Source: Heliocidaris erythrogramma (Eukaryota; Echinodermata; Echinoidea; Camarodonta; Echinometridae). Taken from it: a DNA stretch of 64,000 nt. Where the stretch lies: NCBI GenBank assembly GCA_025617745.1, contig CM046861.1, positions 14,036,516 through 14,100,515 of the forward strand, written 5' to 3'. The notes under the pieces are model-generated. The model was not told where the DNA came from, did not search any database, and saw only the letters and a program-made list of their open reading frames with translations. Shown here piece after piece: positions 16,233 through 57,884 of the stretch (its first letter is position 1; the number at the start of each line of letters is the position of its first letter). Both the position numbers and the translations under genes were made by a program.

Positions 16233-18337
16233 TCTTGCGAAAAGCTTATAACAAATGACACCCATTTGTTATAAATTGTCTTTATTAAAAAGTTTTGGAT
16301 GTTCGGAAGCTGAAAGTCATGAAAAGGGGGGTTATGAAAATTAATATATAATTTTTTCTCCATGTGTTTGTAGGTGTCCGCTTTCCCCAAAATGTGCCTT
16401 TTATATAATGACCCCCCCCCCTCCCCCTTTGAAAAATGATCAGCCACACCTGCTGTCATTTGGTTTTTGAAGACAGTGCCTACTTTCTTGTTTTGTGTGT
16501 GAACCTCCATTTTCTCCTTTTTATTATTAATGCCTTAATGGCCTTGGCATTGAGGCTTCAAGCCTTGTCCCTGACCTTGGCGTCGTTAGTCAATGCATTG
16601 GCCTTGACTATACACTGGCGTCTCCTAAAGGGGATAATAAACTATATATCGCAGAGTATTGCATGCTTTTTTTAAGTAAAACCGATATTACAAAGTAAAT
16701 TACACTATTTAGATGTGGTCAGGAGAATTATAAAACCAAGTTCTGAAAACAAGCTACTTTCGAGTGAAGCTCTTCGAATTTCGAACCATATTAAAAATTG
16801 ACTCTAGATATAACTCCACCTTTGGAATCAACAGTTAAAAGTTGATTCGTTAAACTAATAATGCATGAGAAGAAAGAAGCATACTATTATGATGGACAAA
16901 AACACTAGTCAAATATAATTATTTAGATTTAAACGGTTAAACTATAATTATCATAATTAAATAAACGAATGATTTTCGTTGCTGAAAATAAGACATGCTA
17001 TAACAAGTTTCTATTATTTCGGTAGTAAATGTTGAAATTCAATCGCTGTGAATGAGATTTTTGAGCAAAGATAAATTGCATATTTTTGTTTTAATTACTG
17101 ATGTATTGTTTTATTCTTTCTTTTCATCTATCCATTATTGTGACGCGGGATATTATGTGTTTTTTGTTTAATTTTTTTTGTGCACGGGCCGGCAGAAGAT
17201 CAGACCTCGGGCTGAGGTAGGCCTCCGTGCTTGGATAAAATCAAACAAGTTTGTTTTCTGTTAAAGATCACATTGCAAGAAAATCACAAATATGGCAATT
17301 AATGTATCACTAGAAACTGGGAAGCTTACAGATGGCAATCGTATAAGTTTTATGTCAGCTGTGTATCTGATGATAATAAAAACAACATAAATAAAAGCTC
17401 TTCTAAGCATCTGGAATATCCGAGGATTCGCCAGAAATATAGCGATGTTTTGATGTCGTCACACTAGGGATCGATCCTGCTTAAGCAGACGACGTCCTAT
17501 AATGAATGAACGTAATTGCAATGCAATTATCAAATTATAAAGAGTTTGGTATATTTAACATGACCTTATTTCACACCATTCTAAAAGGGAAAGTGAAACT
17601 CTTTCTGATAACTAAAACCGTTTGATTGTAAATACACAGGAGAAGGGTCAATGATCAATGAAATAAACCCCATTTTCAAATTGAAAAGCCCTCCGAATAA
17701 TATCACAGATTGTATTCGTTCCCTCTTGAAACGCCGAACATGCCCCGGTGCAAGCAGCTGAAAATACAATGGCGTCTTATTTTGTTTACAAATGACTGAT
17801 TCCTTTATTTTTTAACGCTGCATTTTTTCATCAAAATAATACCATACACGAAGTTAAGAGTGAGGCAACAGACTAACATTAAGACTGACGCTAGTCAAGT
17901 AAGAGAAATAAGTGAAGAGGAGATGACAAAACAGGCACTGAAAAATGTGTAAGATGTTATGGGACATCGTCTGCTTAGACAGGACTGGTCCTTCGTGTGT
18001 CGTCACACATCTCAGCAGCGTTCAAGGAGCTCTTCAGCTGCTATATCGGGGGCTGTATTTTACCGTTTTATAATTGATAATAATCATTAATTCAAATGTT
18101 TCCAAACGTTGAATTTGGATAACCTTTTATAATTTATGCCATCTATGCAATCATAAGTATTCAGCCAATATTTATTTTGATGGAATTTTCTTGCAATGCG
18201 ATCTTTAATGGAAGGAACTTATCTATCCAAAATGGAGGTTTGAGAAATAAACTTTCAACTATTCCATTGGGATATCGATTGCAGCTGTATGTGAACTCAT
18301 GGTTCTTTGCTTTCTCCTTTCCCCATCTCGACCAGTG
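16233..18337. other. 5' flank of the SLC16 gene
   Basis: Mostly AT-rich unique sequence. 17455-17502 and 17955-18010 are diverged inverted copies (AAGCAGACGACGTCC against AAGCAGACGATGTCC, with GTCGTCACAC further out), suggesting an old ~555-bp inverted-repeat element. A possible splice acceptor (ATCGATTGCAG) ends at 18284, 53 bases before the chosen start codon, so a 5' untranslated exon may lie upstream. No TATA box or other convincing core promoter was identified. Confidence 0.4.
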
Positions 18338-18566
18338 ATGGAAATATCATCGAACCAAATCGAGAGAGGAAGTCCAGAGCGTCACTCTTCTTACGGATGG
18401 AAGCGATGGAGTATTTTAGCAGGACTTTTCTTAGTGGCTTTCTTCGATACAGGATTAACTAGAGCACTCTCTCTCTTCATCGACGACTTCAAGTATCAGT
18501 TTAATGTCACTACGTCATATCTAGGAACCGTCTTCGGTATTTTCTCGGGGATGCCATGTTTTCTAG
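18338..18566 (+). CDS. SLC16-like gene, exon 1
   Basis: Encodes residues 1-76 plus one base: a polar N-terminus (MEISSNQIERGSPERHSSYG), then membrane segment 1 and the start of segment 2 (LGTVFGIFSGMPCFL). The donor is CTAG|GTAAAG. The upstream in-frame ATG at 18299 would add 13 residues. Confidence 0.88.
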
Positions 18567-21500
18567 GTAAAGTTCTGTACCTCTGATGTCACTTCATATT
18601 CAAAGCTGTAACCCATTGTCGTTAGCGGAGTCGAAATTACCCCCTAGTTTGCATACTTTCAAGTACATTTTCCGCAAAACATGCCCCCTCCCCCACTGTT
18701 GGCTTTCGGGAAGGAGGGGGGGGGGGGGGGGGGGGGGTGGGTGTAGAGCCTACAAAGGTAAGAATAATCAACATCTAAACACATTGCACCCGCAAAAGTC
18801 AAATTAACCACAAATGTCATAATAGACTGTATGGGATGATCACTGAAATATTCACTTTTTCGTGGTCTGCGATTTCGCCCCACTTTCTCTTCTCAAATGT
18901 TACTAAAAATATCTACTACAAAAATGATCAATTTACTGCAATAAATCATATATACCTACCTATTATGATAGTCACTTGACTACGCTAACCCGTTCGAGAA
19001 CTTAACACAAATGAATCACAATATTGTGCGCACCACCCGTAATCCTATTGTTCTCCCCTTCGCCACTCATCCGCAGCAATACGCAACAATACGCAACGGC
19101 CATCTTCCTCTTTCTTGCTCGCCCCCGTCGGGTGCGGTCGTGCGTTACGGCGCTCCTGATTTCAGGTCATTTTGTATCTTTTCAGAGCGCTGTTACGCTC
19201 TTTTAAACACTTTTCTGTACTTATTTTCGTTCTAGATTATAGTACTCTTGTGTTTTATGTCACTTTTTTTTGCCTTTTACAAGGGAAAGTTTAGGTTCCT
19301 TTTCAGGCAGTTAATTTACAGTTTACGACCAGCCCCACGTAGTTATTTCTGTGTGTCTTGCTGGTGTTTCCGTTTGATCCGATCCAGTTTAGGTTCGGTG
19401 TTTATTTGAACGGTGTTTGTCTGTAGTAATTTGTGCGTATCCCCAAATTTTTAGGATTTATTTTTACCTGCTCTCTTAAAGTATTTCATATTTTTGTATA
19501 CTTTATTGTCTTGTTTTATTGCAGCATTATGAGTTCGGAAGAAGAAGCTGTTAGGTCGCGGAGACCTGCTTCTTCCGAAGAGTCGTCTCAGACCAGAGGG
19601 GGGAACGTCTGTTTCCCGCACGGTAGCGACGACTGGCATAAATCCGCTAGGGGGAGACGCGTGCCACTACTGCAGGGCAGCTCACGGGCACCGCCCATTT
19701 TGGTCTGGGTTCACATACCCTAGCCCTCGGCCGATGCCAAATGGGGGAGCGAGTACTACCCGGGCTGTTGCTTTTGCCAGCTGATGGGAGGCTCGAGCCA
19801 ACAATTATGGGCGCTCTACGGAGTGGTCACCTGAGTGCGCGACTATTAGTGCTCTCCTATTGTCGCCCACGGGCGGAACAATAGTGAGTTCACATACTAT
19901 TAGTAGTAGGTGGGCGAATACTGGCAGCTCGTCCCAGTCTGCCCTCGCACTGGGCGCCTCCAGCGCCCGGCCGCGTCTTTTGTAACCAAGCCTAGGCAGA
20001 TTTCATATTTTTTCATGAATATTCATGACGCAGGGTCGGGAAACGGTTCCAATTGGTCTTCATGAAAGCACGGTCGGTGGGTTGGGGGGAAAAAGTCCCT
20101 GGCCTGCACGTACGTACACATATTACGTGCAGCGCTATATTTCGATCGTGTGTGTTCAACGTGTAGGCGCCTAGCCTACGTTCATGTATGTATTGTTTAA
20201 TTCTCAACATATTCACCCCACCTATGCAATGTGACACGTAAAAAATTGGACTGAGCAGTCAATTTCAAAATCAAGTTTTGCATTAATTTATTGCATGTGC
20301 GTAGATCTAATTTAGTAGTTAGCTCTTTTGAGGACACCCTCCTTTTCCGACCAAAATTGACACTGCCACTGGCATTACTCTGAAAATAGGTCTAGACCTA
20401 GGCTATGCGTATATTGACAATTGCCCATCGTAATGTTCTCCACAAATGAACTTTACAACAATATGCAGAATCAAGACACAGACTCTAGGCTAGGTCTAAC
20501 AACGTTAGAGTCTTACTGTTCACGTTAGAAATTAAATTTCCTTGCATGCACACTGTAATTAGCACTTGCACCCTGCTCCTGTAACGCACATTGCCCTGAG
20601 TTAGAAGAACTGCAAGAGTCTTCAGGACTGAAAGAAGCAGACTACTACTAACGTTCCAATAGTAGTACTAACGTTAGTACCAAGAAAACAAACTATTTTG
20701 GGGACCTTTTAGCTGATGAAAACAAAGTGCGTAACTAGTTATTGTAGGTAGATCTAAAATCATCTAGATGTAGATCTACCCCCATTATCAATCATTTACT
20801 AGTACTGATTAGATCTAGGTCTAACTCATCATGCTCATTGACCTTAAAATAACATTCACTTTAATCTAAACTTAACTGAAATTGAAAATTGTAACAAAAT
20901 TAGCCTAGTTAGAGTAGATCTAGAGTAGTTAGAGTCTTGGCTAGACATAACTGCAAATTTGATGATATCACACCATCACATTCCGATTCCATTTTGAAGT
21001 TGGGTCTACCACACGTCTATTATTAGGCCAGCATTTTGAGGGATACGTGGAGGCAATTCTAACTCTTATATTAAGATCTAACTTAGATCGATAATAGATT
21101 CAGTGCAAAAACGTAGGCTAGGCGCCTACGTCACGTTGAACACATACGATCATAATATGCGTACGTGCGTGCAGGCCAGGGACTTTTTTCCCCCACCGGC
21201 GACCGTGCTTTCATGAAGACCAATCGTAACCGTTTCCCGACCCTGCGTCATGAATATTCATGAAAAAATGCGAAATCTGCCTAGGCAAGCCTAGGCACAT
21301 CAAATCTGGTCCCGCTTGAATTGATTGGGACAATGGTCCACGAACAAAAGACGCGAGCGGCCCATGGGAGTGTCCGCCTGTTTCGGCTTTTGTTCGTGGA
21401 CCATTGTCCCAATCAATTCAAGCGGGACCAGATTTGATGTGGCTTCTTCTCAAGCTTCGGTTTCTGAATCGACATTGTTGGAGCAGGCAGGGCCTCAATC

Positions 21501-24500
21501 GCTCTCCCTTTGTGGGGCAGAGGCGATTGCATTGTCCAAATATCTCCCTGAATTTCAGTCAGCCCGCGCGCAGGGTTCGACTTCGCGTTGGTTCAGGCAC
21601 AAGGTTTTCTCTCCGACCTCAGGTCCAGGGCGGAGGAGTTGAACGTCACTGATGGTGATAAGCTGGTTATTGATGACCTGCTGCACACTTTGTTTGCAGT
21701 GGTCACAACTTTCCAGTAAGGCGGCTTCGGTTACGTTCGTCGCAGGGTTTTGGCCTCTCTCCCCTAGTGGTTAAGGAGACTGACATTGCGTCACTTCTCC
21801 GGGATGTCCCGTATCGGGGTCCTTTTCGCTTTCGCGCTCTTCCCTTCGGGCTGCGTCCAGCCCCTCGGGTGTTTACGCAGGTTGTAGCCGTCTTGGCAGC
21901 CTCGCTGAGGCGCCGCGGCCTTCGGCTATTTTGCTATTTGGATGACTGGCTCCTCTTAGCGGAGTCGCACGATCGTTTGTTAGACGAGGCACGTTTGCTC
22001 GTCAAAGTTACTCAAGACTTGGGTTTCCTAATAAATTGGGAAAAGTCAGTTGGTTCCTACTTGTAGCCCGTGTTTTCTGGGGCTGTTAGACATTCGGAAT
22101 CAATTAGCTCGGCCCAGTCGAGACAGGATTCTGACTATTGTCTCTGCAGCTAGCAAGGTCACTCTGGCCAGAAATGTCAGGGCCAGACAGTGGCTTCAGT
22201 TCTTGGGTTATCTAGCCAGTCTAGTCGATGTTCTAGAGGATTGCCGGCTCCTTATGAGGCCTTTTCAGAGGCATCTCCTCAGGTTTTACAAACCGTGCAA
22301 TGATTCTCTCTTGGTCTGGATTCCAGTACCAGTAGAAATCAATTCCCTTCTCTCCAGTTGGACGAACGTGGAGTTTCTCGCGCGAGGCAAGTCCTTCCGT
22401 ACCCCCTTCCGTCGATCTCGGTTTCGACGGACGCCTCTCGGCTGGGGTGGGGCGGACATTGCAACGACAGCACGGTTTCGGGGGATTCGTCTCATCTCGG
22501 GACTCTACCACAGTCATATCAATGTCCTGGAATTCATGGCAGTCTTCTTAACCCTGCTTCACTTCAGAAGTCGACTTCCCCCAGTCGTTCAGTTCTGATC
22601 CTCACGGACAATGTCACAGTGGGGACTTTAACAATCGGCAGGGAGGCACTCGTTTTGCCACCCTGAATGCCTTAGCAGCGCAGCTGTGGAGATGGTGTCA
22701 TCACATGGCGATCATGCCCGTTGCCTCTTTTCATCCCCGGTCAGGAAAACCTCATTGCGGATTTTCTATCCCGGGGCAGGTGTCTTCCATCAGAATGGGA
22801 GCTCCATCTAGAGGTCTTTTCTCGCATTTGCAGTTGCCTGGGCCCACTGAAAGTGGACCTGCTTGCGTCAGCTCTGTACCACAAGCTTCCGAATTACTAC
22901 TCCCGTGTTCGCGACCGGGAGGCTTGGGCTCTGGATGCTTTCTCTCTCAGTTGGGAGAATCTTCGAGGGTTTGCCTTTCCTCCCTTCCAGCTGTTCCAGC
23001 GAGTCTTGCAGAAGATCAGGGAAGATCGGGCTCGGGTGCTTGTAATAGCTCCCTTTTGGCCCAGGAGGATTTGGTTCCCGGAGTTAGTGAGCCTTCTGGT
23101 GGCTCAATCGTTCCTTCTTCCGCTCAGAGCGGATCTGGTGTCGCAACCCCTCTCGGGGATTCTTCCCCACAGTCCGTCGCGTCCCTTCATTTGACTGCTG
23201 GCCCCTGTCGGGGAATCCGACAGTCAGGTCTCTCTGAAAGGGCCGCTGACTTTTTAATGTCCAGTCGTAGACTCTCTACTAGGGAAATTTATAATTCCCG
23301 TCTTTCAGTCTTTTTCGAATGGTGTAAAGCGCGGGATCAAACCCCGTCTAAGGCTCCTATTGGTTCAATCGCGGATTTTCTAATCTCGCTGTTTGACAAA
23401 GGAAGGTCCATCTCTACTATCCGCTGTCTACTGTCTGCGATCGGCGCCATTCATTCGGGGTTTTCGGATGGCTCGGGGATTTCTAATTCCCCGCTGTTGA
23501 GTGGATTGATTCGGTCTTTCTTTCTGAAACTTCCCCCTCGTTCTCAGTTGGTCCCGTATTGGAGTTTGCCTCGGGTCCTAGAAGCCCTAGCCAAGCCTCC
23601 TTTCGAATCGTTACGTGAAGCTTCGCTTCACCATCTTACGGTAAATACGCTCTTCCTGATAGCCATTGCCTCTGGCCAGAGGTGCAGTACCCTTCATGCC
23701 CTCTGTCTTACTCCTGGCCATGTTCGTTGGGAGAGAAAAGGCGTTAGATTGATTCCCAAAGCTTCTTTCATTGCCAGGAATCAGACGACTTCTTCTGGCC
23801 CTGTTGAGATTTTTCTTTGTCCGGTATCTGACTTTTCGTCAGTGCGTGAGGACAAGGTTTGGTGTCCTGTTAGAGCTCTCAAATGGTATATTGATAAGAC
23901 TAAGTCTACAGTCGTAAAGATGATCAGTTGTTCCTGATCACTCGAGAGCCTTTTTCTCCTGCTTCTCTTGATTCCACTTCTAGATGGATTGTCGAGGCTA
24001 TTCGGGCCGCCGCGACGGCACAGATGCCCTCTTGTCAGATAGTTAGCCCCATGCTCTTGACACTCGTAGTGTCAGCTCCTCTTGGGCTCTGTTTCAAGGT
24101 GTGACTCTTAATGATATTTTGAAGGCTGCCTATTGGCGTTCGCCCAATTCCTTAATTTCTTGCTACCTTGGGGATGTCCCTGCAGGTGAGGCGATTTTTG
24201 CGTCAGCTACCTTGAAGGCCGCTGTGTCTTCTTTGTAATCCTGTTCCCTTCTTCTCTTAAAACATGCCACCTTGTTTTTGAATGGGTGCTAATCAGCATT
24301 GATTTTCTTGTTTACTATATAAATCTATATACACCTACCTATGACCCCCCCCCCCCCCCCCCCTCCTTCCCCTCGCCTTGCAAGCAACATGTTTTTCTAC
24401 TTGGGGTTGCTCGCAAAAGAGGAAGATGACCGTTGCGTATTGCTGCGGATGAGTGGCGAAGGGGAGAACAATAGGATTACGGGGGTTCGCACAATATTGT

Positions 24501-27500: not shown

Positions 27501-30500
27501 GACTTAGAGGGTGAAATAAATTGTTTTGTGCAACAGTATAATATTTCCATTTTGCATAAATATATCATAAATATATCACGATATCATGAAACATTGCAAG
27601 TTTACAGCTTGGCAATATTCATATTTGAATTCAGCACAAAAAGCTACCCTAGTCTACCAATTTCCATGTAGGGCGAAAATGTGGACCACGAAAATCAAAT
27701 ACGGAGCCCTTTTTTCCATGTCATCCCATGGTGTATAACATGTCAAGCACAAGTGTAAATATAACCGCTTTATTGTAAAACATTTCGCCCTCAAATGTAA
27801 AAATCTGTTTAACCGCAAATGTAAAAACACTTCGCCTACAAATGTAGATATTTCCATATTTACCTCAAATGTCAAAGCATGTAAACTGCAAATGTAAAAA
27901 CTCATTGCTTACATAACACTGATGTATTAAATGATACTAATAATGTCAGAATGAAACAGAATGACATTAAAGGTCCCCTTTTATGAAATTATAATTCTTG
28001 GTAGTTTGTACATGCATCTCATCTAAATTGAAAAATGACATCCGTTTGCAATAAATACGTATCAAAATATTTTAAAAATAATATTTCCCCCAGGTATTCA
28101 TGTCCAAAACAGTCTGCTAAGCTCCGCCCCCTTTTAAACCCCGAATTCTCGTTCCGCGAGCCTGATTGACGTGTGACGTCACAAACCGACATTACCGATG
28201 CTTGTTTACAATATTGCATATGTATCACATGTGCAAACTAACTTGCTGTTGTGTATACCACCTCGAAAACCACCTCTAAAGCGAAGTATGCCGCAACGCT
28301 GCGTTGTTGCAGGTTGCAGCAACACCACAAAGGAGGGTGTCACTCTACATTTATTCCCTAAAGACCCAAATATAAGAAGGAAATGGACCGCAAAAGTAAA
28401 ATTAGCTCGCGCCCATTGGAAGGGGCCAAGTGACCGCAGTGTTGTGTGCTCCGAGCACTTTTGTGCGGAGGACTTCGTCGATAGCACGGGGCTGCATTCG
28501 GCGTATGGCATCAAGAAGAGGCCGTCCCTGAAACAAGTTTGATCATAGTACATGTATCAATAATATGAAATTTGGCGACTCTGAGCTTTCCCTCACAAGC
28601 ACCTCTCTCAATTGGTCTTTACTATTAATTTTTTTTTGTTCTTGATGAAGAAAAAGATCTTTCTCCATAAAGAGGGTGTTATAAAAATGTTTATCATGGT
28701 AGAGTGGAAACTCAGTATAAAGAGGTCTGATACAACAATATTTCTGATATAACAAGGTAATATTTTGGTCTCAACTCTAATATTGATTTTTGTTACCACC
28801 CTGAATGTAGTGAAAATGTAACGGCCAATTTTCAACCTACAAGCCCCCCCCCCCCCCCCCCCCCGGCAGGAAAAACATCACTACAGTTACAGTTACTTCT
28901 CTACCTTATACATGTAGTTCATTTGACAGAAAATCTATTTTCCAGTGATTCCCTCTTTCACCATTTCTTCTCTTGTGCTTTCCCTCCATTTCTCCCTCTT
29001 TATGCCCAAAATTCTCCACTTTCACACATCTTCCCTCAACTTTTTTATCTCTCCCTTTTTCCCCCAGTGATTCCCTCTCTTTTTCACTATTTCTTCTCTT
29101 GTGCTTTCTGTCTCCCTTTCTCCTTCTTTTTGCCCAATATTCTCCAATTACACACATCTCCTCTCAACTTTTTATCTCTCTTTTTTTTTCTTTTTCCATT
29201 CTGCCAATTGTTGGTTTTAATCTCATTCACGCACTCACACCTTTCTTTTCAATTGTTAGCTTCATTCACGACAAGCCTTGCATAGTAAATATGTTTGAGC
29301 TCTTCCAGAGATGACAAAAATATTCAATTGATTTGAAATATATTATTACTTCTGGAGAAATGTAGATATAGATGTTGTATCCAGGAAATGGTTGTCTTAC
29401 AATTGAACATCAAAAATTCAATAGGAGAATGCCCACCCCCCCCCCCCCCCCCAAAAAAAAACATAACAAAACAAAACAAACAAAACTGATTAGCTTCCAA
29501 AGTGTCTTTCATTAACAAATTAAACAACAAATGCCATAAAAAATAACAGACCTCATTTGCCATTAACAATAGAGTTATCATTCTTAACTGAGATACATGC
29601 ATCTTTACAACATCAATTACAAAAAATGCTCTGGGCAAATACTTAGATGTGAACTCAGTTACCCAATTTCAATTCTTTTTCTGACAGTGAAAATGAATAT
29701 TCAAAATAAGCCTCCTAGACTCCTCTTTTCCTCTGATACTTGAACCAAAAACAGCAATAAAATTTTTACCACATTGTCACAGTGTAGCACACCCTCATGT
29801 AATAAACCCAACTTTCAGGGAAACTGATATCCATGTATAGGAATTAAATATCATGAAAAGATAGAAATGACGTACTAGCATTTTTAACATTTCTTATAAA
29901 CAGTTATGTACATGATAAATGTATATGCTATGTAAGCGTTATCAAGTTAACAACTAGACCAACATATATAAGTACATAATAATAAATACAACAATGAATC
30001 AAATGAAAGAAGAAAAAAAATCTGTAGAAAAAATAATGTCAATTTGAAAAGAAATATGATGTGAAGCAACAATAATGATGATCACATGAATGACCCGAGT
30101 AAATAAAAGATCATGTTTGCCAGTCATTAGTACTGAATAATTTTTTCTTTCAAATAATGAAACTTTGTGTAAATGTTTACACTGACGGAACAACAGTTCT
30201 GATACATAAATATTTTTCAAATGTTCAATTCTACTATCACCTTTGCATAATGTTGAGATTTGTGCATGTCATATCCAAGCCCAGTAAAAAAAAAATATGA
30301 GAATAATGGTTGCATAGCTTAAAGTTCCACAGAGCTGTTCTCCCTTTTGATTTTTTTGCAAAGGTTAAAAATATATATATATATATACAGTAAACTTTGC
30401 AAAGAAGATATCCTAAAGAGGTAAAATGCAGGGAATATTTCCAATTTAAAAAAATTATCTTTGAAAATCTATCCTAGAACAGTAATAAAAATCTCAGTAA

Positions 30501-33500
30501 TAAGGTGGAAGTAAAACATATATTTCTCTGTAAACATAGATCTTGACAAGGTGGGGGAAAAGATATCAACAGCAAAATTGTATGTAGGTCTACGCCTCTT
30601 CAAACTTCAAAGCCCCTGTATTGTTCTGATATTCGCCAAACCTTCAAAAATCCCTCAGTAGGGGTTATTGGGGTCCAGTTTCCCTCCATAATTCCCTGAC
30701 AAGCAAAAAAAAAATCATACTTCTCTTCCAAAGGGGGGGGGGGGGGGGGGGGGGGGGACCGGGCCGGCTGTGCACCCTGGATCCGCCAATGGTTCTGATA
30801 GAAATGCTGCACGGATTCTTGTCACGGCCGCACAAGATGGGAGAGGAACACGTCCTGCCCTGCCCAGGAAACTCCAACACCATCGTACAAGCTGCCTATA
30901 GGCCACATGCCTGGCTTCCCTATAAAAGATTTTTTTTAAAGAGTACAAAGGAAACTATGATTAGACAACTTCAAAACAATGCACAGTGTAGTCTATAATG
31001 TAGGTGATAGTGAGGTAACTTTTACTTTGAAATTCACAAATAAACAATAGAAGATTATCTAATAATTTAGTTGTCAACATCGCAGTGTAAAATGTTGTGA
31101 TGGGGAAAGAGGAAACAAACGTTAATCTGCACATAGGACAAGAAAATACATGTACACTGCAAATAGAATAATCTTCCTCTATTTACATTAAGGCTAAAAC
31201 ATTATTTTCTTTTATAGAATATCGTAATATTAATTTCATAAGGAGCCAAATTGGCATTTTGCATCCAAACTGCTTTATATAATACAGGAATACTGCAGTA
31301 AGGATTAAAACAAAAAATATGGTGTACTCACCGATTTTCAGTTGCATCCTGCCTTGCCTGTCCGCCATACTGCTGCCGATACAGATAGTAAGCAGTTTCC
31401 ATCACATACCGCTCCAGACACACTGGATGAAACCCTGGGTGGAGAAGAAGAAGAAGAAGATCATATCTATTGTCAACTATAACGGTACCTACACTTACTT
31501 AGTGTAGCAGCACAAAGAAAACAAGCACGATAACAGGAGAGCTAAGAGTTTTCTGGATATCAATGTTAGAATTTACTGGAATCAACCACCCCATGCACCA
31601 GTAAAACTGCCCAAGCGCAATCCCAGGCAGGGTCAGCAGGCGAACAACCAAACGGCGCGGCGTGTACCCCGGCCCTGCGCACATCGAGCTCACTGCCTCG
31701 ATCATCGAAGTATCAGCTCAGCCTCTCGGGCAATTTGCAAGCGTAAACAAGATTCATAATACGTGGATATGCGTAAATTAAACTTTAATCGGTAAATTAT
31801 TATCAAAAAATAATTACCAATTGTTATTCCCAAGTCTCCAGTCGATATCCTCTCCGTTATTAAAATCAGGGACGTCTCTGTCATCATCAGAATCTTGCCC
31901 AGAATCCGACATGTCTGGCTCAAACATAGTATACGGCCGGGCCCCTAATTCCTCTTCAATTTCTTCTGGGACTTGATGCTCCAAATCAGATATATCTGAT
32001 CCTGAATAAGTGTCCTGGCTGAAGAAGATGATGCCATCGTTGATGTAGGATTTTGTCTTTAAAAAGCTAAAATGAAGGGCTGAAGTGGCACGAAGTCGAA
32101 GGGATCTACACGAAGCTCAATAGCCTATTACACACACACATCGATACTGATCCAGCTTGTGTGAGTTGAGCGTTCTGTGTGTGACGTCACATGACGTCAT
32201 CGATCGCTGGACCGATTTTCCAAAATTTTTAGGGGCGTTCCCAGATATTTTTTTATTTTCAAGTTTACAGATTAATGAATGGAATTCAGGTAATATGGTT
32301 GACAGATCTGGATTCACAGTAGAAAAGTCTATTAAATGAAGTTCTTTTGTAATTCCATAAAAGGGGACCTTTAAATCCAACGAAATAAAAAAAATGAAAT
32401 AAATTAAAATAAAATGAAATAAAACATATTTCTCCTAAAATCTTATATAATATAAAGAAATTTATTTCAGCTGAACAAACAAACAAAATTAATTATAATT
32501 TTTTTTTAAATAATAATAAATAGTGCATCTTCCCATTGCAATGACGCACCTACACCCCAGGGCGGGGTGCGTTATGGAAGGGTCATTACAATAAAAAAAA
32601 GGGACCTACAGTGCGCCATTTTCGCACCCTCTTTCTTAAAAAGTTTAGAATGACAATTTATGTCCCGGTGGCAGCAACTAGAGACATATGGAGAAAAACT
32701 TATTTTACCTTGTCCCTAGGGAGTTTTATTGCAATGTAATAATTGATAAAAAGAAGGGTTTGGTAATTGTATCACTCCCCAAGTACTTGATAGTTATTTA
32801 GAAACTTTTTAAAAACATTTTTATGGACTCGCCTCGGTGCTGGGTCATGTGACTTCTGCATCATTTTTCTGACACACACATGTGCGTCACAAAAATGATG
32901 CACATGTGCCTCAAGGTTGTCCATTGTATGTCATTTTTTTGTTACTGTCATTATTTGTGACTGTGGTGTGGGTTATTTTCAGTGTATCAGTCAACAAAGT
33001 GATGGAGGTGTGCCTTAAGTTCAATTTCAAATTGACAAATTACGCACCACATCCGTTGTATAGGGCGCGTCATTACCATTAGCACGTGCATAAAAAATTG
33101 GACAAAATATAACTTTGTCCTTTGTTCTGAAAAACCAATCAATCATCATTTAATAATAATCTAAAAAATGAGACTGAATTTTTTATTGTCTATTCAATTT
33201 TGGTTTAAATATTGAATAAAATACTTCCCTTTATACACATGCACACTTGATAAATATCACCATGGGCGTACGGGCACATTTCTTCTTCTTTTTTTTGGGG
33301 GGGGGGGGGGGACTGACGTCTTTATTTCCAGTTTACAATCTTTGGGAGCGAGCGAAGCGAACGAGTGAGAATTTTGGCACTTTATGTAATTTCATCAAAA
33401 TTTTATATTCTCGAACCTCGATGGCAAACTAATTATGGGGCATTCGGCATCTCGCTTCCCGAATATCGGAACTATGAAAAATCCTCGGGGGGGGGGGGGG

Positions 33501-36500
33501 GGGGGGTGACTGCGGCCTCTCCTGTGAATATAGACCTATTGTTTCAAAGATAAATCACAGTCTTGGGCATAACAATCTTGGCGTGAATATTTCGCTTGAT
33601 TTGGATGCATGGTTGAACACAGGGGTTTGAACGGAATCGTTCTGGAGTTCTGAAGTAATTTTAAAACTGGCAAAATGATAAATTAAAACAAATCATTTTC
33701 TATGAATGTTGAGTTAGTCTTTAAAGAATGCATACTTTTGAATCCGTTCACTCCATTCTTTTGTTAAATTGTTTGGAATAAAGAAATGGTTGTTTTGGGG
33801 GTTTTCCCAAAATAATAAAAATATTAAAATTAAATAATAAAATGCGCCATCATGAGTTACTAACGGTTTTACCGCGCCGTATTCTTAATCCAAACAGCAT
33901 GCAGCGTGCGCCGTATTTGGTACAAACAATTTGTGTTAGTTTTGATTATCACTAGATTCAATCGATAACATGCAGGTTTCAGGCATTTAATTTCATTTCA
34001 ACCATTAAATACTGCATCATAAAAAAGTCTCGTAAATAAAGAGTGAAAAATTACATTCAAATTTGATTTAAATAAAGCGCCCTCTTGAGATTGATAAAAT
34101 AAAATGCTGTTCTATTGCGATTATGTGAATTTTTCCCGCCATTAACGTTTAGAATCAGCTCCTCTACCTGCCCCTTTAAACTTATCATAAAAAGCAACCA
34201 CTATCAAACCACTAGTTTAATGAGTTTTTACAGTTTGCGGCTGACTTTTTTTTACCTTGGTGGTAAAGAGTCTGTCAATATTTAGAAATTTTAATGATCA
34301 GACAAACCTCACACACACGCACGCATGCGTATATCGAGGGCCCGGTCGAAGATTATGACCCCCCCCCCCCCCCCCCGCCCCCCCCCAAAAAAAAAACAAC
34401 AACAAACAAACAAACAAAAACAAACAAACAAACAAACAACAAAACAAAACAAAAACAAAAGCAAAAAAAAAAAAATGTCTCAACTTTAAGTTCTATCACC
34501 TTGAACACAAACTAATTTGTGTATTGTAAGCTCAGAAACGTAAATGAGGCATTTCTGATTCAGCTAGCATTTGTGGACCTTTAACACTAGCCTAGTCAGT
34601 ATAACTGATGCGATTTCTCGGTACTTTCTTAATACTTACTGTGCCATTCTGCCGTTTGGCACAGACTCTTCACATATATCCCATAGAAGAGTATTTATAA
34701 ACATGGCAAACAAAGAGTTAAACCCACCGTTGTTTCGCCTTACAAGTAGGTGCATGCATCTAAGCTAAGAAAATCAAAGGACTATTCATTTCTTCCCTCT
34801 CAAATTTTTACTAAGGCTGTGCTCGTCATATAACATTGACGCTATGAATATCATCTTGATGGTGCCAAACATTCGAAAACGTTCCATAATATATATAAAC
34901 GGCTATTTGATACCATTTGTGAGTTTTCTTTTTTTATCGATATACAGGTTTGGTGAATATACCTCTACTCCGTTACTTCTCTGTTCGACAGCTTACGATA
35001 TTTGGTGGTGTCTTGGCATCGGGAGGGCTTATCGCGGCTTCGTACGCTCGGACATACGTTGAATTAACTGCCTTTTTGATTGCTAATGGTAAGTGATTCG
35101 TTACAAGAACAACTGAATATAGTGCTGACGCGTGAGATATTGTTTGTGGGTTAACATCCCTATTTCACTAAACATATAGCCTATCATAATATCAAAGACA
35201 TAAATGAACTTGAGGCGCGCGAGCCCTTTTAATTTTGTGTGTGTTTTTTTAGTTGACGTGGAAAATTTTAAAGATCATGTTGAGTTAAACGTGCACAGAA
35301 ATGTTTGTGAGTTTTTAGTTTTATTCATGCCTGTGTGGAAACATATCATAGAAGCAAAGTCGTATGAAAAGGATTTCTCTTCAAATGCCCTGAGCCCCTG
35401 ACCCTCGAAATATAAACAGAAAGTGTTGATTTTTATTGACAGATTTTATGACTGTTTTTGATAGAGATCGCAATTTAAGTTATTTAAATTTTCTGTTTTT
35501 CTAAAAGAAAATAAAATTGCTTTTGATATCTTGGCTTCCATTCAGGCGTTGGGTTTACCTTTGTTCTATTACCAACAAACACCTGTCCAGCTGATTATTT
35601 TCCCGAGAAATTCGACATCGCCAATGGGATTTTCATCTCTGGTGGGAGCGTCGGTGTCATGCTCCTACCCTGGATCACCGAGACCCTGATGGACTTTTTC
35701 GGATGGAGGGGCTCCCTATTGCTGCTAGGTGGCATGGAGCTACACCTCATTATTGTTGGCGCGCTCCTGAAACCAGTGAGAAGCCAACGTTCAAGAAAAC
35801 ACAAACCTTCATCTCAAACTGATATTGAAATCTCAGGTGGCTACACCAAAGTCTCGTGTCAGGTAGATTTACCTGATGATGAAGGCATGGTGTTCAGAGA
35901 CAGTACTGTAGGCCCTTCAGCGACAAAATACTACCTTGTAGGAGAAAAAGCCGTCTTAAATACTGAAGAACACAGAGATCCAAACTCAGCTTTCTGTGTG
36001 GTGGACACTAAGGATATTGCTATTGGTGATTGTAACTCTATCAGAAAGACAGAACAGCCAGATAACAGATTAAATGAACACGACGAGGCAGAAGAAGTTG
36101 CTACCTCAGTTGATAAATGTAGTTCAAACCTGCAATTAAAATCTACCAAATGCTGTAGAGGCGGTTCCATGAAGTGGATTATATTTGCGGTGAAATTCTT
36201 CAAGGAGCATCCTCTCATGATCATCGTGTGTATTCAGGTATACCTTTTTACTCTGCCATACGGAACATGGCTGATGTTCACTATCCCTAATGCTCAATCC
36301 AAAGGTCTCACTGACCTCAGATCTACTCAGCTGTCACTCGCCGGTGGAGTCGCCAACTTCATTGGACGTTTCACATTTGGATTTATCATTTCCAGGAAAT
36401 TCGCTCGAATCGAAGTCTTGTATTTGATCGCCAACTTGATTTCATCGCTGGCATTTTTCATGAACTATGTGGTGGATTCCTTCGGGTTCTTGGTGATTCT

Positions 36501-39403
36501 TTCTCTCCTATTTGGATATACGATGGGCTTCAAGATTCCAGCACAGCTTACCCTAGTGATGAATGCTGTTGGACACAAGCATTTCAAGACGGGGACAGGC
36601 TTACTCTATCTGTGCTATGGCACCGCCTTCCCACTGCTCGGGTTTATTTCAGGTTTGCTGAAATTCTTTTCAATTAAGTACATAATTCTTAAGTTTTAAT
36701 TTCAACCCCCAATATTTTTTTTTTCATTTTTGCTCATAATTACAAAGAAAGAACATATAGATGAGCCATAATCTCTAAAAAGAGCGAGGGCTTTGTGGTC
36801 TCTGGAATTGCCTTACAGACACAATGCAACTCGATTCTAAACACAGCTGTGGTTCACTTACATTTTCGGTTTATTGCGGACTACCACACGGTAGCCACCT
36901 AGGTCCACTTCTTTTTATTATTTACATAAATGACATTAAAAAAAATTCTTTCAACTGTAGACCTAGTTTTTGCAGATGATTCCAACATATTTTGCCGTAC
37001 AAATGCAAACAAACTCCTTAAGGTAACATATTGGATCGAGATCAATTTATAAACAATCCCTAAACCCGTAGAAGATTAGATTTTCGCTACAAAATTACCA
37101 TGATGACCAGTCTTCCGTGCAACATCATTCTCTAGAACGTTTCTACATCTACAATTCCTAGAAGTCCTAATTATCCTGGCAATCCCTAAGTAATATAATG
37201 CACAACATACATGCGAAACTACCGCCCGAAAGACTTGAGTTATCAAAACACTAAAATACTTTGTCCTTCTTTCGCCTACTGTACTGACAGTGTATTATAC
37301 ATAAATTGCCAGTGAATTGTAAACTATCACCAAGGGGAAGGGCAACACAAACAAAATAAGATATTGAAGTTTAATGTGATTTCTGTTTTTTGTGACTGTC
37401 TCATATCATTATGCACATGTATTGTAACGGGTTCATGTCTCATGTTGGACAACTGATTTTTTTCGATGTCATTATGATCATGATACAGGCATAATAAAAA
37501 AATAGTGTAATTATGTTTGACTCATATAATTATGACAATGTCTAATCAAATTTCAAATATCTGCAGATCAGTTGGGTACCAATTACGTAATGTCGGTTTT
37601 ATTGCGAAATATTTGTCCAAGTCTGCCACTGAAAAGATAGTTCACGCCTTAATTTCCTCCTGTCTCGACTTTGGCAATGCCCTTCTGTTCAATATACCCC
37701 AAAATCTGTTGTCCAAGCTTCAGAAGCTTCAAAATGCTGCGGCTCGCATTGTTACTCTGTCCACCAAGCCTACTCATATATCCCCTGTTTTGCAGTCGCT
37801 ACACTGGCTCCCTGTCAAACATTGCATTATTTTCAAAATTTTGTTACTCACTTTTCACTGCGTTCACGGTTCTGCTCCCCAATACAATACCTCTTTAATT
37901 CAAAATTACACCCCCGTAAGATCTTTGCGCTCATCTACTTGCAGTTTTCTTGTGATCCCTAGAGTCGCAAGATCTGGGGGGGGGGGGGGGGGGGGGGGAG
38001 ATCATTTGCCCATGCGCGTCCTAAATTATGGAATAGCCTTCGTGACACATCAAAAAGTGCATAACATCTGATTCTTTTAAAAATCATGTAAAAACATTTC
38101 TGTTTAATTCTTAATTAATTGCGCCTTGAGCACTCCACAGAGTGGATTTGGCGCTATATAAGTTACATTTATTACATTATTATTATTATTAATTGAACAT
38201 CCAAATTTTTTTTTTTTTTTTTTTTCACATTTTGATCCAGTTAATTTTAATATTTTTTTACTTGTATACAATAAATGATATATTTACAGATATACTGTAT
38301 GTACACTGGAGAGCTTCTAATCATAAACATGGTGTGATATATCTGGTACAGAGAAAGTATCATGGAACCCGATCCGACTTGACAATGACTGTGTAATTAT
38401 TTGTGTGCTCAAAATGCTGAAGAACATTCAATCCCAAATCGCATGTTATGTGTATTAGTCATGAATCAAATTAATAAAGAAATTAAGTAAAGAATGTGGT
38501 TGTTGTGGCATAACCATTTTTGGGACGTCTCTGTCAAATAATGGCAAATGCACAAGACCACCCTTTTCACGTTATAACCCATTGACATAAACTTCCATCA
38601 TAAAAACCAGTCTTGAGTTCTGATGTTTAAATTATGCATAAAACAAATAAAAGAAAAAGAAAATGTAGCACTCTGCTGGTCTTAAAAATATAATCAGTAA
38701 AAACAAATTATGGTGCAAGGACAAGGGCTAACGATCCGCTTTTTACGCCAAAGTGTCAAAATTCCACAGCAGCAATTTACAGCTTCTTTTAGTTTAAGAA
38801 AATGTAGAGCCAGATGTATATTTGCTGGTAGAGAACTCATCCGGTTCATTAGGAGTGATCTATATATTGACAGTAGTAATTGCAGCTGTTGTGAAAATTG
38901 TGAATGAGGCTTATAAAAAAATTGGGAGTTCTGCCAATGTGTAAAGTTCATGTACAGGTGGCCATTTTTCTTGGTATAGCTGCCAGCTTATAGGCATATT
39001 AATATCTTTCTTTTTTTTTAATTGTGTATTTATTGAGAGTTCACAAACATAAAAAAACTTTCAAGCAGATACAAACATGTTTATATATAAAAATTAATGA
39101 CAAATCAAGATATTTACAATTAATTAAGATGATAAAAAAAAAGACGCCAAAAAACAGAAAAAATAAAATATAATAAAAATAAAAATAGCAGAGTACATGT
39201 ATAGAAATAAGTTATAAGACTTTCATATTATGTACATGAGCCAGAACCCCAAGATCGGATTGCATCAAAATCTGACAATTACGTTGGACCCAACGTAAAA
39301 CTAAATACATGTATTGCCGTCCACAATACAAATGGAAGCTCAGGCCATCAAAAAGATTGGAAGGAGCAGAAACGAGAAATGAGACGATCTGCCATACTCC
39401 CCC

Positions 39404-53423: not shown

Positions 53424-54260
53424 CTACATGCAGGCGAGATAGAGCATCGGCTACAGCATCAACTCCTTTAACGTCTTTAATGTCTGAAGTGAATTGTGAA
53501 ATGTTGTCCAGATGTCTTATCTCACGAGGGGAGTGCTTGTCCGGCTTGGAACGGAGAGCGTACGTTAAAGGTTTGTGGTCAGTGTAGAGTGTGAACGCAC
53601 CTCCCTCCAACAAATAGCGAAAATGCCGTACACCGAGGTAAGCAGCGAGTACCTCCCCTCCAAAGTTCCAAATGTGCTATATCGCCTCTCCGGCGGTTTC
53701 AAACGCTGGGAGAAGAAGGCTATTGGCTTCCATACTCCATCTAACAGTTGTTGAAGGACGCCCCCTACTGCTGAGTCTGAAGCATCTACCATGGTGAAGG
53801 GCTTGCTTCACTTGAGTGAAAGCTGCAGCTCGTTCATCCGTCAAGTCAATGGGCTTCATAGACCGATTGGGGAGATCTCTCAAGGCATCAGTCAATGGAG
53901 TGAGAATGTCGGCTGCCTTGGGAATGAAACGTCTGTAGAAGTTAATCAAACCCAGGAACCTGCGCAGCTGCCGGGCAGATGAAGGGCGAGGAAATTCACG
54001 AATTTCCTTGACTTTGACGCTGAGAGGGCGAATACCGTGCTCATCAACGTGGTGGCCAAGAAAATCGAGGCTGTTCGCACCAAAGACGCATTTCTTGGGA
54101 TTGATGATAACACCGTACTCAGAGAGGCGTTTGAACAGGGCGTGAAGATGACGTTCATGCTCCACAGGCGTTTCGCTGGCAATCAGCAGATCGTCTATAT
54201 AGGCATAGAGGAGAGAGAGAGACCACGCGTTACCCCGTCCACGAAACGCTGGAAGCTCTG
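53424..54260 (-). pseudogene. RNase H and C-terminal reverse transcriptase of the gypsy-type fossil
   Basis: Reverse transcriptase signature YAYIDDLLIASETPVEHERH near 54190-54215 and FLGHHVDEHGIRPLSVKV downstream. The RNase H block is recognised by VDASDSAVGGVLQQ, FTLYTDHKPLTYALRS and DAVADALSRL. The region ends at 54260, where the TACCACA element is inserted in the RT domain. Confidence 0.85.
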
Positions 54261-55689
54261 CCCTTACAAAAATTTTCTGTGGTATACCACACAACGTTAC
54301 CACAGGATATACCATAGGATATACCATAGGAAAATTCCTGTGGTATACCACAGAAAATTCCTGTGGTTTTTGGGGACATTTACCACATAGAAGTACCACA
54401 CATAAATACCACACGGGATTACCACATAGAAAATACCACAAGAAAAATACCCATGGAATTCACCTGTTGATCTTGTGGTATTTTGGGACGTATACCACAG
54501 AACCCCGGGCCCATTACCACATGTTAATACCACAAAACAATACCACAAAGCAATACCGCATGCCAGTACCACACAGCAATACATGTGGTATTTTGGGACA
54601 TATACCACACAAATCACGTCAATACCACACACCTGTACCACACAGCAGTACCACATGGCTGTACCACACAGCAATACATGTGGTATTTTGGGACATATAC
54701 CACACAAATCACGTCAATACCACATGGCTGTACCACATAGCAGTACCACATGGCTGTACCACATATCAGTACCACATAGCTGTACCACACAGCAGTACCA
54801 CATAGCAGTACCACATGGCTGTACCACATAGCAGTACCACATGGCTGTACCACATGGCTGTACCACACAGCAGTACCACATGGCTGTACCACACAGCAAT
54901 ACATGTGGTATTTTGGGACATATACCACACAAATCACGTCAATACCACATGGCTGTACCACATAGCAGTACCACATGGCTGTACCACATAGCAGTACCAC
55001 ATGGCTGTACCACATGGCTGTACCACACAGCAGTACCACATGGCTGTACCACACAGCAGTACCACATGGCTGTACCACACAGCAGTACCACATAGCTGTA
55101 CCACATAGCAATTCCTGTGGTATACCATAGGGCAATACCACAGATGTTTACCACATACCGCATAGCAGTACCGCAAACCAGTGCCACACATATGTACCAC
55201 ACAACAATACCTGAGTTCATCTTTGGACATAGGCCAATACCACAGAGAAGTACCACACAAAAACACCATACTGAATATGAGAGTACCACACAGCTACTCT
55301 CATATGGTATTACTATGTGGTACTCCCTTGTGGTATTGCTTTGCGGTACTCCTCTGTAGTATTGCTGTGTGGTACTTCTCTGTGGTATTACTGTGTGGTA
55401 CTCATCTGTGGTATTGCTGTGTGGTACTCGTCTGTGGTATTGCTGTGAGGTACTCCTGTGGTACTGCTATTTGGTATTCCCCTGTGGTATAGCTGTATGG
55501 TACTCCACTGTGGTATAGCTGTGTGGTACTCCTCTGTGGTATAGCTGTGTGGTACTCCTATGTGGTATTGCTGTGTGGAAGTCTTGTGCCGGTGTCAATA
55601 TGTGATACTCTGTGGTATCGCTCTGTCATACTACTGTGTGGGTTTTCTGTTTGGTACTGATGCATGCTACTGGTGTGCGGTTTTGCCAA

Positions 55690-56930
55690 GTACAGTGCCT
55701 GTCACAATTCTTCTTCTACCTGTTAACCTGCAAAAGCTTATCACAATAGGATCACAGTGGGATCACCGGACCATATCTATTGAATTCAGCGCTTGCAGGT
55801 TAACAGGTAGAAGAATTGTGACTTGTACAATGAGCTTATGAAGAGACCATTGTGAATTTTGAAGAGCGTCTTCCTGAGCAACTATTGCAAAGTAAATTTT
55901 ATTAGATCCTCCGGATTCGTCATTAAATTTGATACATCTAACAAAATTTATGCACCGAATGATCAGATGCAACTCAACCTACCCCCCCCCCCCCCTTGCC
56001 GGGCATGCAGCCTCTACATAATGTTTGAATAATTTTGGCTCTTTTCAGGGACACTATAGGTCTATCTACTCATAAAATAACGTAGCATCGCTTATTTGAT
56101 TTATGAAACATGCATGCAGAAAGTTGATACCCACCATAGGACAAAAACAACGAATACATGTATATGAATAGGTGGAACTACAAGCTTAACTGTCTTAAGT
56201 ACTTAAACCTTCATTCATTACTCTCACTCATCAACTGTCGAGTGATGCTCAGTACAAAAATACCCATCAAGAAAGTGAATAATATTAAATGAATTGCTAT
56301 TACTTCATAAAATACATTGCCATTGCTCACCTTTGAAATGAAGTTTATAATCCAGAAATCTTGTAGGCACATGTTCTGCCTTTCACTTGCAATCACTGGC
56401 TGTTGTAGATCATTTGAATCTCTAGCTAGCTGCGCATGCCCGAACTGCATGCATGCAAAGACCGCGTTAATGTAACGGCTGGCATATTGCCAAATATGTC
56501 TGCCATAGTGTCTGCCATAGAGTTATACACAGAACTCAACTCTATGGTGTGTACCGGTTTTCCAATACATGTGTGTGTCTGTGTGTGTGCAGTTGCTTGT
56601 GCATAGTCTATTAGATTCAGACCATTTTGCAATGAAATGTAATATGTTGGTAATCAATAGGCCTACGCGTCGCGATGGTATTGATGCTTAATAGCACTTT
56701 AATTTGGGGCCCGTAACATAAAGAGATAACTCAATCTTACGATTGATCAATCGTAAGTCTATGGCAAACCATGTACTAAAGAGTTACAATTGATTGTAAG
56801 ATTTATTGTATCTTTATAAAATTTAATGATACAGGACCCTGATATTAAACATACTAAAGTGTTCAGAATTCACTAACTGATTGAAATAATTCAATGTGTT
56901 TCGAGCTATTCATTCTGAGGCATCTTCTGA
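55690..56930. other. Non-repetitive core of the TACCACA element
   Basis: About 1.2 kb of ordinary AT-rich DNA between the two repeat fields. CACAATTCTTCTTCTACCTG (55696) and its inverted copy near 55800-55821 form a local hairpin with TTAACCTGCA in each arm. No domain was found. ATTCATTCATTA and TGTGTGTC runs are minor. Confidence 0.5.
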
Positions 56931-57279
56931 GGGTATGAAAAATTTCATAGAAAATACCACAAAGAAAAACTATACCACAAATTACCATACAGCGGTGCTG
57001 TGTTATTTATATAGTACAGTGGTATGAAAAATACCATAGGAAATACCACAAAGAAAAACTATAGCACAAAAATACCATACAGCAGTGCTGTGGTATATAT
57101 ATAGTACAGTGTAATACCACAGGGATGAAAAGGCCCACACAGATTCCTGTGGTACTGCAGATGTGATCGCCTGTGGTAGTCATGTGGTAAAAGAAATACC
57201 ACAGGAAATACTACAAAGAAAAATGTACCACAGAAATATCATACGACTACTATACCACAGCACTGCTGTATGGTATCTC

Positions 57280-57884
57280 TTACAGCCTTGTCACACTGTA
57301 CAACAGTGTTGTACTGTTGTACAGTGTGACAAGGCTGTAAGAGATACCATACAGATTCCTGTGGTGCTGCAGAGGAGTAGCCTGTGGTACATACTTGGAC
57401 CTAAAAATACCACAGGGATGAAAAGGCCCACACAGATTCCTGTGGTATACTGCAGATGTGATCGCCTGTGGTAGCCATGTGGTAAAAGAAATACCACAGG
57501 AAATACTACAAAGAAAAATGTACCACAGAAATATCATACGACAGTGCTGTGTTATTTATGATTTATGTGGTATCTTTTACAGCCGTGTACACTGTACCAC
57601 ATAAATAACACAGCACGTACTGTTGTATGATATTTCTGTGGTACATTTTTCTTTGTAGTATTTCCTGTGGTATTTCTTTTACCACATGGCTACCACAGGC
57701 GATCACATCTGCAGTATACCACAGGAATCTGTGTGGGCCTTTTCATCCCTGTGGTATTTTTAGGTCCAAGTATGTACCACAGGCTACTCCTCTGCAGCAC
57801 CACAGGAATCTGTATGGTATCTCTTACAGCCTTGTCACACTGTACAACAGTACAGCACTGTTGTATGATATTTCTGTGGTAAAT
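57280..57884. repeat. Near-perfect 258-bp inverted repeat inside the TACCACA element
   Basis: 57280-57537 read on the minus strand and 57627-57884 read on the plus strand encode the same nonsense peptide for over 70 residues, so the DNA arms are practically identical. The spacer is about 90 bp and itself contains ACATAAAT / ATTTATGT inversions. A second palindrome centred near 57310 (CAGCCTTGTCACACTGTACA) lies in the left arm. Confidence 0.85.

Follow-up and report, generated by a model that had tools for sequence, protein, structure and literature searches.

A stretch of 64,000 nucleotides from the sea urchin Heliocidaris erythrogramma (GenBank assembly GCA_025617745.1, contig CM046861.1, positions 14,036,516 to 14,100,515), hereafter called the window, contains a 4,400-bp element at positions 27971-32370, which very probably belongs to a non-autonomous, deletion-derived family of a KolX-bearing (Kol0-kind) Kolobok DNA transposon that is moved in trans. 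We infer a parent element with two converging genes, one encoding a THAP-headed transposase and the other KolX, a zinc-binding protein with the ballast fold of P2X7. The family present in the window would have lost the transposase body just past the THAP domain as well as the first zinc half of KolX, would have kept both ends, and would be mobilised to TTAA sites by a Kolobok transposase produced elsewhere. An initial annotation of the window, made from its letters alone, had described the element as a mobile TTAA Kolobok carrying both THAP and ballast domains. The kind of element, its mobility and the many copies held true, but no transposase domain was found and both genes turned out to be damaged.

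The ends of the element were confirmed at the coordinates given by that annotation, including the matching inverted ends and the TTAA flanks (Table 1). The inverted arms (27967-27994 and 32347-32374) comprise 28 nt including the TTAA and are 93% complementary, and the outermost 15 nt are the same at both ends. Within the window, the 15-nt end with up to three mismatches matched four times versus 1.9 times expected, which is not unusual, and exact matches occurred at the two ends only. In the window's own genome (1.06 Gb, 26 contigs), TTAA followed by the end with up to two mismatches occurred 431 + 444 times (875 in total) versus 72 + 68 times (140) for a reversed control. A chance inverted repeat was ruled out by the pairing of the arms together with this excess of the TTAA-end pattern. 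Both the duplicated TTAA target site and the AG..CT ends, corresponding to 5'-RR and YY-3', are those of Kolobok elements.

A DNA search of the genome with the element revealed 137 matching pieces from the best 35 of 2,197 candidates. Twenty copies were retrieved through their similarity to the interior of the element. Of these, 12 displayed both ends with up to two mismatches, and all 12 were flanked by TTAA on each side and had different neighbours; the remaining eight were without one or both ends at this threshold. Another 20 places were fetched as end pairs, all with TTAA on both sides, which was built into the search pattern. Together, the 32 both-ended places showed 30 distinct flank pairs by script, and 28 sites were left after removal by eye of L046 (one base different from L044) and L051 (L049 reversed). 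The nearest copy lies 280 kb from the window copy and shares its flanks, as expected of a segmental duplicate. Copy L052, another copy than that of the window, is located inside a retroelement-like frame, and joining its flanks resulted in open reading across the site; all 40 scored genomic relatives of this site (best 40 of 274 candidates) continue across the junction without the element. Since the both-ended copies have TTAA and different neighbours in 12 of 12 cases, and since the relatives of the L052 site are uninterrupted, the element family is mobile. The refuting condition named in the initial annotation, that no other copy has both ends, did not hold. Host genes carrying THAP and ballast exons were ruled out by copies at many sites.

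Some single copies displayed features of their own. L049 and L051, with lengths of 4,568 and 9,834 bp, have identical flanks in opposite orientation and represent a duplicated insertion site. L052 itself holds a further retroelement-like insert with a frame of 596 aa, and in the family copy L010 (G000:C2:7201000-7208300) the internal CT-rich minisatellite has grown over about 2 kb.

The left gene starts with a THAP domain (PF05485, E-value of 2.3e-13 for the entire frame and 8.3e-14 from the ATG), as anticipated by the initial annotation, and the frame is also matched by structure chains of THAP2 and THAP1. It had, however, been regarded as complete, whereas it covers only the first part of the profile (Table 1) and ends directly after LKQV, ahead of the AVPTIF box that Kolobok transposases are described to have in their THAP domain (PMC6004289). 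The relative L057 goes on as LKQDAIPKI and fills profile positions 1-86 of 87; its DAIPKI sits at the place expected for the AVPTIF box. A THAP domain, as found in Kolobok transposases, is recognisable in the window, though cut before this box.

No DDE domain was detected by Pfam in ten longer frames of the element, eight of them interior, in which the sole match reached 15.0 bits, below its cut-off of 22. Likewise, by eye, no DDE transposase of the element's family was found among frames of at least 130 aa at 20 end-to-end places, two of which contain other inserted elements. Because neither these ten frames nor the 20 places revealed the DDD/E catalytic domain with its H2CH finger, the element is classed only as a non-autonomous derivative. 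The parental transposase was searched for with a THAP query including the AVPTIF box. Among the best 150 of 4309 candidates, ten matches reached residue 88, eight of them 93-100% identical and the other two (C13:30603842 and C6:52237376) 84-85% identical. No long intron-free transposase frame was present among these 150 matches, the longest open frame listed being 260 aa.

Inward from the right, the spliced ballast exons claimed by the initial annotation are indeed present, but the gene has suffered at least three lesions, namely a shifted start, the loss of the first zinc half and an interrupted end. The start of the middle exon (exon B) was set by the acceptor after 31435, which has a pyrimidine tract; with this start, the exon is out of frame after the N-terminal exon (exon A) and splicing leads to a stop, while one weaker upstream acceptor (after 31494) would preserve the frame between the two. 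The stretch from W/CSC (slash at the exon junction) through CITE is missing, as is the first zinc-cysteine half. With respect to the profile search for the P2X7 C-terminal domain suggested earlier, the last exon (exon C) alone stayed below the cut-off of PF20478 (21.9 versus 23.5 bits), while the hand-joined exons reached 27.2 bits (profile 113-183 of 192). Compared with structure chains, the joined exons matched no P2X7 chain and gave one chance-like match only. Exon C is interrupted by a nested insert located between two 9-bp direct repeats GTTCTGATA (30623-30631 and 30792-30800), and the old exon end continues from 30619 downwards. This layout is what a small transposon with target-site duplication would leave. 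Since many of 20 compared copies show alignment breaks at this point, the sequences suggest that the insert predates the spread of the subfamily.

The ballast gene is preserved as a whole in a relative at C11:33820364-33824981, which has ends similar to those of the window element. Its three-exon KolX reads ..RLGNNNW/CSCSGGC..VCC..CITEHPGFHPVCL../KARHVAYRQLVRWCWGFLGR..LPSC..EEYRGFEEA-stop and thus retains WCSCSGGC, VCC, CIT, LPSC and YRGF. After joining, it matched PF20478 (P2RX7_C) with 53 bits over profile positions 76-191 and residues 475-592 of the P2X7 chain 9e3m with an E-value of 1.5e-4, and its cysteine clusters resemble those listed by Rump 2020 (PMC7016195). A KolX with the ballast fold expected of Kol0, as far as sequence comparison tells, is hence partial in the window and whole in L061 and L057. 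A search with an 80-residue KolX query, of which the best 150 of 620 candidates were scored, covered the whole query in 19 matches (86-99% identity), two of them with an internal stop, while at least 89 of the 150 matches start at residue 31 or beyond, past the first cysteines; this count of start positions took in 147 of the 150 rows. In addition, two single-exon ballast frames with cysteine clusters were seen at G000:C11:58557539-58557886 and G000:C7:8776252-8776638 (L058 and L059; 88.2 and 82.7 bits), which appear unlike the element's family and might be host genes or belong to other Kolobok lineages.

The converging arrangement was also detected elsewhere in the genome. Profile searches with PF20700 (Mutator-like transposase domain; 56 matches) and PF20478 (best 150 of 463 candidates) revealed tail-to-tail pairs at three places, on C8 within 6.0 kb and on C11 and C5 within 7.9 kb. 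The C8 place also bears a zinc-bearing KolX exon, which is 64% identical. Apart from that, C3 carries a PF20700 fragment upstream of a THAP match that belongs to the element family, at a distance of about 5 kb and apparently outside that copy.

Several points weigh against a Kol0-kind parent and movement in trans. The analysis revealed no DDE transposase that has these ends, so the parent is a reconstruction, and we likewise infer that PF20700 indicates Kolobok transposases in this genome. The three converging PF20700 matches are weak (28-30 bits, cut-off 26.5). They belong to a set of six weak matches to the same part of the profile, three of which have a converging P2RX7_C match within 8 kb; for one of the others, on C4, the partner is about 38 kb apart, and two have no P2RX7_C match among the best 150 of 463. 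Finally, about half of the THAP frames (20 of 39 rows) are ungapped, which could also be explained by weak selection. The last point leads to the reading that the element is non-autonomous, but retains the THAP-only peptide or a KolX without zinc site for a function, e.g., a THAP peptide occupying the ends and repressing the transposase. Based on 39 matching rows from 41 loci (local duplicate L009 excluded), the 84-codon frame is free of indels in these 20 rows, and two of 21 ungapped sequences including the window contain a stop. Yet 14 rows carry a frameshifting indel, one another indel and four are partial, and a 7-bp loss is common to 11 rows. In the THAP frame, 27 of the private changes are non-synonymous, 11 are synonymous and one is a stop, which corresponds to a near-neutral ratio of about 0.85; shared changes gave a ratio of 0.86. 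For exon B, the ratios were about 0.60 (13 private changes) and 0.75 (shared), both from small counts. Relative to the window, exon B is frameshifted in 26 of 41 rows, and for exon C no ungapped rows remained for a ratio. Therefore, neither THAP nor KolX seems to be needed in cis, the copies are best explained by movement in trans, and a retained function appears very improbable.

Less probable still is an intact autonomous two-gene transposon, itself a possible donor of the ballast domain, as proposed in the initial annotation. Both ends, the TTAA and two recognisable gene pieces would fit this, and the weak acceptor after 31494 would hold exons A and B in one frame. However, the scanned frames are devoid of a transposase domain, THAP stops early, the ATG of KolX does not share the frame of exon A, splicing at the pyrimidine-tract acceptor leads to a stop, the 160-bp insert breaks up the last exon, and the first zinc half is missing. 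A TTAA element of the piggyBac type that holds a KolX-like remnant would agree with the TTAA and with the lack of the first cysteines in the window, but we consider it barely credible, since the AG..CT ends represent the RR..YY signature separating Kolobok from piggyBac (PMC9587614), a THAP domain is located at the left, and the related copy with similar ends retains the cysteines. KolobokP was ruled out as well, as the long direct repeats at its termini (about 450 or 660 bp) have no counterpart among the repeat families listed (the 20 largest of 34), the longest of which is 62 nt.

With the non-autonomous Kol0-kind family as the preferred reading, the copies could be regarded as a series of deletions that arose naturally within a single genome. 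In this series, copies with zinc-less KolX would still spread, the ballast gene or its zinc site would be dispensable in cis, and the THAP-only, zinc-less form may be a successful parasite competing for the transposase of the full element, an idea that we put forward as speculative and rather unlikely.

In the surroundings of the element, a frame at 35527-36699 (plus strand) is recognised by the profile of the MFS transporter family (PF07690, 87.5 bits), and the region 18251-18586 (plus strand), which has no Pfam match, looks by eye like an earlier exon of this gene, so that the element may be located in an intron of an MFS transporter gene. Frames at 21677-23937 (plus strand) presumably resemble a DIRS-type reverse transcriptase and tyrosine recombinase; two of them were scanned with Pfam and gave no match. 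Region 53677-57474 displays long arrays of short repeated motifs with overlapping frames on both strands, amid apparent retroelement pieces.

Table 1. Positions of the features of the element within the window.
Feature	Position	Strand	Remarks
Left TTAA target-site copy	27967..27970		TTAA on both sides in sampled both-ended copies
Left terminal inverted repeat	27971..27994	+	starts with AG (5'-RR)
Truncated THAP frame	28288..28542	+	84 codons and TGA; Pfam THAP 52.6 bits, profile 1-62 of 87
Interior, expected place of transposase body	28543..30622		no DDE domain found
CT-rich minisatellite	28942..29187		period 128, two units
Nested insert	30632..30791		160 bp with a 25-base poly-G run; flanked by 9-bp direct repeats GTTCTGATA
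KolX last exon (exon C)	30793..30919	-	EARHVAYRQLVRWCWSFLGR..LPSC..; PF20478 profile 142-183; acceptor TTTTATAG/GGAAGCC; matches P2X7 ballast
KolX middle exon, truncated (exon B)	31332..31434	-	GFHPVCLERYVMETAYYLYRQQYG..; first zinc-cysteine half missing
KolX N-terminal exon (exon A)	31818..32037	-	DISDLEHQVPEEIEEELGARPYTMFEPD..RLGNNN; ATG at 32037 out of frame with the remainder
Right terminal inverted repeat	32347..32370	-	CT at the end (YY-3')
Right TTAA target-site copy	32371..32374

Kolobok elements of the Kol0 lineage encode a transposase and KolX, the latter matching region 476-595 of human P2X7 with seven conserved cysteines, and P2X7 is described as the product of a fusion between a P2X4-like gene and KolX (Kojima & Bao 2022, PMC9587614). 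Within the collection of papers searched, the name KolX led to this publication alone. Thus, the inference of the initial annotation that such an element bears on the origin of P2X7 was right in spirit, but had already been published. Our analysis supports the published descent of the P2X7 tail from a transposon protein within one chromosome-scale genome, while the origin of P2X7 itself is not settled by this element. It adds a KolX with all zinc-cysteine clusters, carried by an element whose two ends match, together with numerous decayed relatives from which the parts not required in cis can be seen. The role of KolX could be tested with the help of such natural variants.

Compared to known systems, the element is most similar to the Kol0 lineage (Kolobok-1_XT kind; PMC9587614), with which it shares the TTAA duplication, the 5'-RR..YY-3' ends and the pairing of a transposase gene with a KolX of P2X7 ballast fold. 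It differs in having no transposase body and only a partial KolX, and its placement is based on KolX, not on a DDE tree. No statement on which strand KolX occupies in Kol0 elements was seen in the consulted passages of PMC9587614. The Xenopus XKol elements and T2-MITEs (miniature inverted-repeat transposable elements; PMC6004289) likewise have AG ends, TTAA, THAP in the transposase and non-autonomous members, but come from a different host and have other end sequences; neither KolX nor P2X7 is mentioned in the main text of that paper. The P2X7 ballast and the nanor-like ZCD proteins (Rump 2020, PMC7016195) share the cysteine clusters, LPSC..IR and the Y-x-GF end with the complete related KolX, whereas KolX has no P2X channel part and the window copy is without the first cysteine clusters. 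KolobokP (PMC9587614) belongs to the same superfamily and also has its second gene downstream on the opposite strand, but this gene encodes a His-Me nuclease, and the long terminal direct repeats are not seen in the window element. Altogether, the link between P2X7 and KolX has been known since 2022, and the window element is a good new example of it rather than a new kind.

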